NCBI GenBank assembly: GCA_022571415.1
Contig: JACZXW010000008.1
Location: 1 to 48,514, forward strand
Source of the DNA: Pseudomonadota bacterium
Lineage (GTDB): Bacteria; Pseudomonadota; Gammaproteobacteria; Pseudomonadales; Azotimanducaceae
Length of the DNA stretch: 48,514 bases
Direction: 5' to 3'
Program-made: the position numbers and the translations under genes
Shown here: positions 16,105 to 30,426 of the stretch, one piece after another
Layout of the letters: each line of letters begins with the position of its first letter
Numbering within the stretch: position 1 is the stretch's first letter
Notes under the pieces: model-generated
Databases searched by the model: none
What the model was told of the DNA's origin: nothing
Seen by the model: only the letters and a program-made list of their open reading frames with translations

Positions 16105-16316
16105 CTGCCAGCTGGGCTGGCAGATAAGTTAACTGACTTTCCCGCCAACCGGGACCCTGTTTAGGGTCCCGGTGGTGGGATAAAAATTCTCACACCTATC
16201 GACACATGATCCGGGTGCCTTGAGTCCTTGAGTTCCTGAGCCTTCGGTTCAGGACAGGCAGGACACGGGTTGGATCATGGGATACGTGGAGGCTTAACCC
16301 AAACATTGGAGTATGT
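16105..16316 (+). ncRNA. rpsB leader, ribosomal protein S2 autoregulatory RNA
   Basis: Untranslated leader in which excess S2 is expected to repress rpsB-tsf. It opens with a hairpin at 16105-16123 (CTGCCAGC/GCTGGCAG) and a second at 16151-16170 (GGGACCCT/AGGGTCCC). The conserved-looking part spans about 16185-16300. There CATGATCC (16205-16212) pairs with GGATCATG (16272-16279) around an inner hairpin with a UUCG-type loop at 16234-16254. It is followed by the stretch ACGTGGAGGCTTAACCC that I know from pseudomonad rpsB leaders. The rpsB ribosome binding site GGAG sits at its 3' end. Confidence 0.7.
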
Positions 16317-29294: not shown

Positions 29295-29768
29295 TTACTT
29301 TTTTTTGGCTGAAACAATAAAGTTCAACAGGAGCAACGCTTCTTCCGGGTCGGTTCTGCCAACTGGCGAAGAAGAATAAGTCGAGGAAATCACACGTCCT
29401 GAATTTGTTACAATAAACTCCGTTGGCTGTATGAAGTCCCGACGTTCGTCCCAGAAAGACCCAAGCTTGTTGCCCGTTGCGCGATCAACGCCCCATGCGA
29501 CCGGGAATGAAAGCTTGTCGGCCACCTCCGCAGCTTTATCCAGGGTATCGACGCTGGCAGCATAAATTGAGGCGCCAAGTTCCTTGAACTTGTCCAGCCT
29601 TGCCTCATAGCCATCTAACAGACGGCGGCAGAAGGGTCACCAATGACCGCGGTAGAAAAGAATAATGGCGTAGTCGGATTCAATATCCGAGGGTAGCAAT
29701 ACTGATTCGTGCTCACCGATCTTAAGGGTAATGTCCGGGAACGTATCGCCACTGTCTAGCTGGGGCAC
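29295..29768 (-). CDS. AhpC/TSA-like redoxin selenoprotein with Sec-x-x-Cys centre (in-frame TGA)
   Basis: Reading from GTG at 29766-29768 gives 157 residues with one internal TGA, codon 44 at 29637-29639, and a TAA end. The residues around the TGA read FYRGHW-U-PFCRR. Thioredoxin-fold peroxiredoxin-like proteins have FYRGxWCPFC here, so the TGA falls exactly on the first redox cysteine, with the second at residue 47. The rest has family features (GDTFPDI near the start, FPVAWGVD, PTEFIV, a GRTDPEEALLLL tail) and no other defect. GGAGGG lies seven bases before the GTG, inside the end of the GST gene. A SECIS-like hairpin follows the TGA. Simple translation would split the gene at the TGA. A nonsense mutation is the alternative. 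Likely a peroxide or disulfide reductase; no selABCD genes are in view. Confidence 0.85.
29601..29639 (-). promoter_or_regulatory. Sec codon and bacterial SECIS-like hairpin
   Basis: The UGA is 29639-29637. After it GCCGUCU (29626-29620) pairs with AGAUGGC (29616-29610) around a GUU loop. A lower stem UGCC (29630-29627) pairs with GGCA (29604-29601), with a five-base bulge on the 3' side. Seventeen nucleotides separate the UGA from the loop, within the known bacterial range of about 16-37, and the loop starts with GU as in the E. coli fdhF element that SelB reads. Confidence 0.7.
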
Positions 29769-29772
29769 TTGT

Positions 29773-30426
29773 TTACCCTCCCGGGATCTGGGACATGAAT
29801 TTTTTATCTTCGGCAAGGCGGTTCTTGACCAGGTCAGTGTTCAAGGTGTAGTCAAGGTAGCGTCTGATTTTAGGATATTTACTGCCATCGACGTCAAAAT
29901 CTCCATGTAAGCCCTGGATAAAGCAGGTGACGACGCTAATATCAGCGATAGTCACGCTGCTGCCCACAAGCAAGCCTTCTTCAGGCGTGATCGATTCCAT
30001 ATAGTCGAGTACTGCGGGCATCAGGTTGTCCAGAATGTTGGCGACTACTGTTTCGTCGGTCTTTTGTCCAAGCATGGTCGGATTCAGGAACCGTTGTACA
30101 AACAACCCAGCACAGGCTTCCACCAACTTTGTATCGGCAAATTCCTCTATCCACAGGACAGTTGCTTCTTCTTTTGGATCATCGGGGTAGATGGATCTGT
30201 CAGGATATATTCGATCAATATAGCGGCAAATTGCGCTCGTATCGGGAACCGTAAAACCGTCATGTTCCAAAACCGGTATCTTACCCAGAGGGCTGATCGT
30301 CCGAAAAGCCGGGTCATCTGAACCTGGAAATACCGGTTCGATTTCATACTCCACTTCTTTGTACTCCAGGGTAAGCAAAGCCTTCCTGACAAATGGAGAT
30401 AGAGCGACACCGTGGATTTTGATCAT
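29773..30426 (-). CDS. Glutathione S-transferase family protein
   Basis: 217 aa with an N-terminal thioredoxin-like domain and an all-helical C-terminal domain. The active-site region is LSPFVRKALLTLEYK, so a Ser is the candidate catalytic residue. SPLGKIPVLEHDG carries the cis-Pro, and DTSAICRYID binds the glutathione gamma-glutamyl group. C-terminal SVTIADISVVT is the usual N-capping segment. The substrate cannot be read from sequence. It lies directly upstream of the selenoprotein gene, whose ribosome binding site is in this gene's last codons, so the two are very probably co-translated. An inverted repeat precedes the start. Confidence 0.9.
   Translation of the reverse strand: MIKIHGVALSPFVRKALLTLEYKEVEYEIEPVFPGSDDPAFRTISPLGKIPVLEHDGFTVPDTSAICRYIDRIYPDRSIYPDDPKEEATVLWIEEFADTKLVEACAGLFVQRFLNPTMLGQKTDETVVANILDNLMPAVLDYMESITPEEGLLVGSSVTIADISVVTCFIQGLHGDFDVDGSKYPKIRRYLDYTLNTDLVKNRLAEDKKFMSQIPGG

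Follow-up and report, generated by a model that had tools for sequence, protein, structure and literature searches.

Selenoproteins of the peroxiredoxin (Prx)-like type with a UxxC motif have been catalogued since 2005–2008, and the sequence-only reading of this DNA had already mentioned their occurrence in marine bacteria. A Sargasso Sea set contained 22 such sequences (PMC1088965), and the GOS family "Prx-like 1" (PF00578) comprised 225 Sec and 2,740 Cys forms (PMC2398784). A 2026 inventory includes Prx-like UxxC thiol:disulfide oxidoreductase selenoproteins, assigned to PF00578, in its Table 1 (PMC13188914). None of the Prx terms searched for occurs in the main text on deep-Sep (PMC12013277).

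The locus analysed here belongs to a window of 48,514 nucleotides, the whole stretch of DNA under study. The redoxin gene (29295..29768) lies on the minus strand, which the sequence-only reading had not specified. Translated from 29768 to 29295, it reads VPQLDSGD...LFYRGHW*PFCRRLL...SAKKK*, with 157 residues from a GTG start, followed by a TAA stop. The sole internal stop is a TGA (29637..29639, minus strand) at residue 44, within LFYRGHW-U-PFCRRLL, where Sec44 would form the first residue of UxxC. The fourth position of the motif, its second catalytic residue, is Cys47, encoded by TGC (29628..29630, minus strand); its counterpart in Prx is the peroxidatic Cys. Translation reproduced at the same coordinates the intact 157-codon frame previously described, with one in-frame TGA on the first Cys of FYRGxWCPFC. 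The proposed GGAGGG ribosome binding site was also present, as a Shine–Dalgarno-like sequence on the minus strand (29776..29781) located 7 nt ahead of the GTG (29768–29766), at the end of the upstream gene. The expected truncation by standard gene calling was borne out as well, with table 11 yielding a single ORF in the same frame, a 76-aa fragment at 29295–29525.

Open frames bridged by a TGA are common in the window (n = 48, with at least 30 codons before and at least 60 after the TGA), so that the claim of Sec in the redoxin has to rest on comparison. A redox motif like that of the redoxin was found in none of the other 47. This abundance of chance frames, together with the single base that separates TGA from TGC or TGT, could suggest that an ordinary Cys redoxin has acquired a nonsense mutation, has become a pseudogene or was misread in sequencing. 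The redoxin frame is nevertheless raised above chance by homology and by the conservation of its TGA. Translated through the TGA, the sequence hits PF00578 (AhpC-TSA) with an E-value of 1.2e-18 and 67.6 bits (cut-off 26), in agreement with its earlier identification as a redoxin. PF08534 (Redoxin) is a weaker match (1.2e-9), and all NCBIfam models stay below their cut-offs.

In a genome collection at species level, a pattern scan recovered 297 relatives, of which the best 80 loci were kept. The target codon is TGA in 79 of these 80 and TGC in the remaining one (L056), and the only other in-frame stop in the matched stretch is a second TGA in one locus (L094). In the family genomes, TGA likewise occupies this codon in every intact close homologue (45–74% identity); the copy in G002 is frameshifted, and its N-terminal piece also has one TGA. 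U44 and C47 are invariant in the family alignment, and remoter homologues carry Cys, such as FYRGGWCPYC in L020. The comparison with U placed at residue 44, proposed earlier as a check, came out in favour of Sec in both sets of homologues. The recurrence of TGA at this codon, also in independently assembled relatives, refutes a nonsense mutation, a pseudogene or a sequencing error. Selection past the TGA and the covariation of the adjacent hairpin, both presented below, argue in the same direction and leave this explanation with a negligible probability.

Most of the best 80 of the 297 relatives are MAGs of Gammaproteobacteria, in many cases marine and labelled Pseudomonadales, with a few labelled Myxococcota or Deltaproteobacteria. 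The cultured marine gammaproteobacterium HTCC2143 has the gene too (L060). A scan of a viral contig collection gave no redoxin relative, and a class-wide search of 369 genomes, mostly outside the order, gave only distant stop-free homologues besides the window itself. The second in-frame TGA of L094 (L015, G012:C112), a Sec form, lies close to the 3´ end and is probably a true stop, because the family ends near there. In the comparison with the orthologue L052, the codons 3´ of the TGA show a pN of 0.158 and a pS of 0.60, a constraint as strong as that found 5´ of the TGA. These values indicate that purifying selection at the protein level persists past the TGA.

Bacterial SECIS (bSECIS) elements have been defined by a loop of 3–9 nt, a stem of 4–16 bp, a distance of 16–37 nt from the UGA, a G in the first two loop positions and an energy of −7.5 kcal/mol or lower (PMC13188914). 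The hairpin GCCGUCUGUUAGAUGGC of the window (29610..29626, minus strand) falls within these published limits. It begins 10 nt past the TGA with a spacer of 16–17 nt, forms six named stem pairs at −8.1 kcal/mol, and has a G at the start of its loop. Taken by itself, the window sequence gives a 66-nt RNA fold without statistical significance (z = 0.49), and 4% of its protein-preserving recodings likewise form all six pairs. The case for an RNA element therefore depends on the alignment. At the Rfam gathering score, the window gave no SECIS match. The only RNA reported there is a t44 RNA (RF00127) elsewhere in the window, at 16171–16298 on the plus strand (56.8 bits).

The 48 nt from the TGA onward align without gaps among the homologues. 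In the alignment of 76 distinct sequences, the stem corresponds to columns 14–19/25–30 (window 29626–29610), in which 90.1% of the cells are paired, compared with at most 53% in slid registers. Changes on both sides of the stem were found in 26 cells versus 6.6 ± 2.2 after shuffling (0 of 500 shuffles, with kinship ignored), and four of the six stem pairs show compensatory changes. Furthermore, Leu51 is encoded by TTA in 45 of 79 homologues, as against 23 of the 359 Leu codons across 13 window genes. A strict contiguous hairpin of the model type is present in 51 of 78 UGA homologues, reaching −7.5 kcal/mol or better in 30. Judged on this alignment, the conserved hairpin after the TGA fits the bacterial SECIS model.

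The Cys form provides a natural counterpart. Close relatives with Cys at this site, accompanied by other nonsense mutations, had been named as possible counter-evidence; the sole Cys relative among the best 80 of 297, L056, is free of nonsense mutations. In the maximum-likelihood tree, its sister is L055, a Sec form (98/93), and it is nested inside the Sec group, so that its Cys is derived. The L056 gene pairs just two of the six stem positions and lacks the hairpin, and neither tRNA-Sec nor selA was detected when its genome was searched for both. These phylogenetic and genomic data identify L056 as a putative reversion from Sec to Cys. As for the Sec forms, tRNA-Sec scores over the cut-off in 25 of the 30 genomes tested; among the other five, selA is over the cut-off in two and partial in one.

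The genome of the window (G000), a MAG of 2.56 Mb in 159 contigs with 94% completeness, was searched family by family for the Sec machinery. The presence of the sel genes, suggested earlier as a check, was confirmed in part: selC and selD are present, while selA and selB were not found. The tRNA-Sec gene lies at C68:825–914 (69.3 bits), with the anticodon TCA (UCA) according to ARAGORN, and selD at C68:2658–3560 (278 bits). The selD match sits in a frame of 738 codons (C68:2550–4763, L045) with a long N-terminal part, about 1.6 kb from the tRNA-Sec gene. This frame resembles the Ndh-SelD fusion described in PMC2398784.

The presence of tRNA-Sec and selD without selA or selB, despite the completeness of the MAG, could mean that the family encodes a selenoprotein that this strain can no longer make. 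The gene would then be decaying after the loss of selA-selB and would yield a 43-residue fragment. However, selA adjoins selB, within about 3.4 kb, in the same-genus genomes, and selB is over the cut-off in all of these other genomes. Since the two genes form one adjacent pair in the relatives, a single assembly gap suffices to explain both absences. In G003, the 12-kb selA-selB stretch matches G000 only from position 7696 of L043 onward, at C114:273. The beginning of contig C114 thus roughly coincides with the end of ApbE, and it is this end of the contig that points towards the selA-selB locus. On that side, G003 carries a deaminase-like gene, selA, selB and an SDR gene, and a DNA search of G000 found no match to this part apart from a 45-bp stretch located elsewhere. 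An assembly gap is therefore the simplest reading of the missing genes, with the reservation that diverged flanks could also escape a DNA search. The redoxin frame, moreover, is intact and shows no decay. On balance, loss of the machinery in this strain is highly improbable.

Decoding of the UGA as Cys or Trp, by a suppressor tRNA or under an altered genetic code, is supported only by the open frame. Yet TGA terminates 3 of the 13 window genes checked, the tRNA-Sec found in this genome has the UCA anticodon, and the hairpin beside the UGA is a SECIS signature. Such decoding is scarcely credible. Taken together, the conservation of the TGA, the covarying hairpin, the selection downstream and the presence of selC and selD support the earlier proposal that the TGA is read as Sec. 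On this comparative sequence evidence, the locus is very probably a functional selenoprotein gene, with its TGA decoded as Sec44 in a Prx-fold UxxC protein.

Directly upstream of the redoxin lies a GST-like gene (29773..30426, minus strand), whose stop is 4 nt before the redoxin GTG. It sits between a receiver-domain gene and the redoxin, and the two neighbours may be co-transcribed in the window. The neighbourhood of L052 keeps LpxB, RnhB and the receiver-domain gene in synteny with the window, and no GST-like gene was found at the syntenic place beside its redoxin orthologue. A conserved GST-redoxin operon was therefore rejected.

The AlphaFold model of the protein, with Cys in place of Sec, has a pLDDT of 96 and a pTM of 0.91. 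The solved folds nearest to this predicted model are peroxiredoxins, including Bcp4 (3hjp; Z 21.9, rmsd 2.0, 152 aligned) and 6q5v (Z 20.7), with Prx6-type and AhpE structures also among the top matches. Aligned to 6q5v by HMM profile, the redoxin has Arg40, Sec44, Cys47 and Pro115 where Prx has its active-site Pro, Thr, Cys and Arg; all four redoxin residues are invariant in an alignment of 31 sequences. The predicted model thus has the Prx fold and the sequence lacks the canonical signature PxxxTxxC with its active-site Arg. Since the catalytic Pro, Thr and Arg are replaced by Arg40, Sec44 and Pro115, the canonical peroxide-binding site is gone. A CxxC or UxxC motif combined with an invariant Pro is a thioredoxin-type arrangement. 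According to the model, the redoxin retains the Prx fold and has lost the canonical site except for Cys47, with UxxC and an invariant Pro instead.

These features suggest a thiol:disulfide or peroxide reductase working through a Sec-Cys selenenylsulfide intermediate. In the proposed mechanism, SelB and Sec-tRNA(Sec) would bind the hairpin 10 nt past the UGA, and selenocysteine would be put in at residue 44. The product would be a cytosolic protein of 157 aa with no apparent signal peptide, a Prx fold and a thioredoxin-like site, Sec44-Pro-Phe-Cys47. Sec44 would attack a disulfide or a peroxide and Cys47 would resolve the intermediate as a selenenylsulfide, which a thioredoxin- or glutathione-type system could then reduce. 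The same selenoprotein might instead be a true Prx-type selenium-dependent peroxidase and not a general thiol:disulfide oxidoreductase. The full Prx fold, the peroxiredoxin structures that head the list for the predicted model, and Cys47 at the peroxidatic position are consistent with this activity, whereas the replaced catalytic residues and the thioredoxin-type site speak against it; it seems possible rather than probable.

A gene split at its TGA by mechanical calling would thus encode an unbroken enzyme that numerous genomes of marine bacteria have in common. Its UGA homologues, with their covarying SECIS and one Sec-to-Cys reversion, offer a training or test case for selenoprotein annotation, and the same set bears on why Sec persists in small redoxins of marine bacteria. 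A broader and rather doubtful proposal is that the redoxin represents an almost obligately Sec-based branch of Prx-fold enzymes that spans a clade of marine Pseudomonadales and has had its peroxidatic site remodelled into a UxxC site like that of thioredoxin. Such a branch would be distinct from Prx-like 1, with its own substrate or reductant, and would revert to Cys upon loss of the Sec machinery.

Several known selenoproteins are related to the redoxin to different degrees. The Sec-containing peroxiredoxin (PF00578, TxxU) shares its fold and Pfam family, but in the redoxin Sec takes the place of the Thr that precedes the peroxidatic residue by three positions, in a UxxC motif. The AhpC/TSA peroxiredoxin-like selenoprotein (cd02970) has a related thioredoxin fold and likewise opens its motif with Sec, although this motif is UxxS instead of UxxC. 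The Redoxin family selenoprotein (PF08534, UxxC) is also a related thioredoxin-fold protein with Sec first, and PF08534 matches the redoxin less well than PF00578. Moreover, some relatives encode a second Sec family, exported-looking proteins of about 350 aa with FYRGHWUPAC (L021, G005:C70; L025, G019:C153; L026, G022:C14); a strong hairpin comes after their TGA, with the sequence GCAGCTC-GGT-GAGCTGC in L021. This family, which was not found in the genome of the window, shares the FYRGHWUPxC motif and the layout of UGA and hairpin with the redoxin, and differs from it by a signal-peptide-like N-terminus, a C-terminal extension and a separate tree branch.

The closest likeness is to the Prx-like thiol:disulfide oxidoreductase selenoproteins, with which the redoxin shares PF00578, UxxC, marine origin and a single Sec. 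By the two defining features given in the literature, PF00578 and UxxC, the redoxin is of this already published Prx-like UxxC kind. This particular branch, with Sec almost fixed in it, may be undescribed so far. Cys homologues of "Prx-like 1" are abundant in GOS, whereas Sec occupies the site in 79 of the best 80 redoxin loci.
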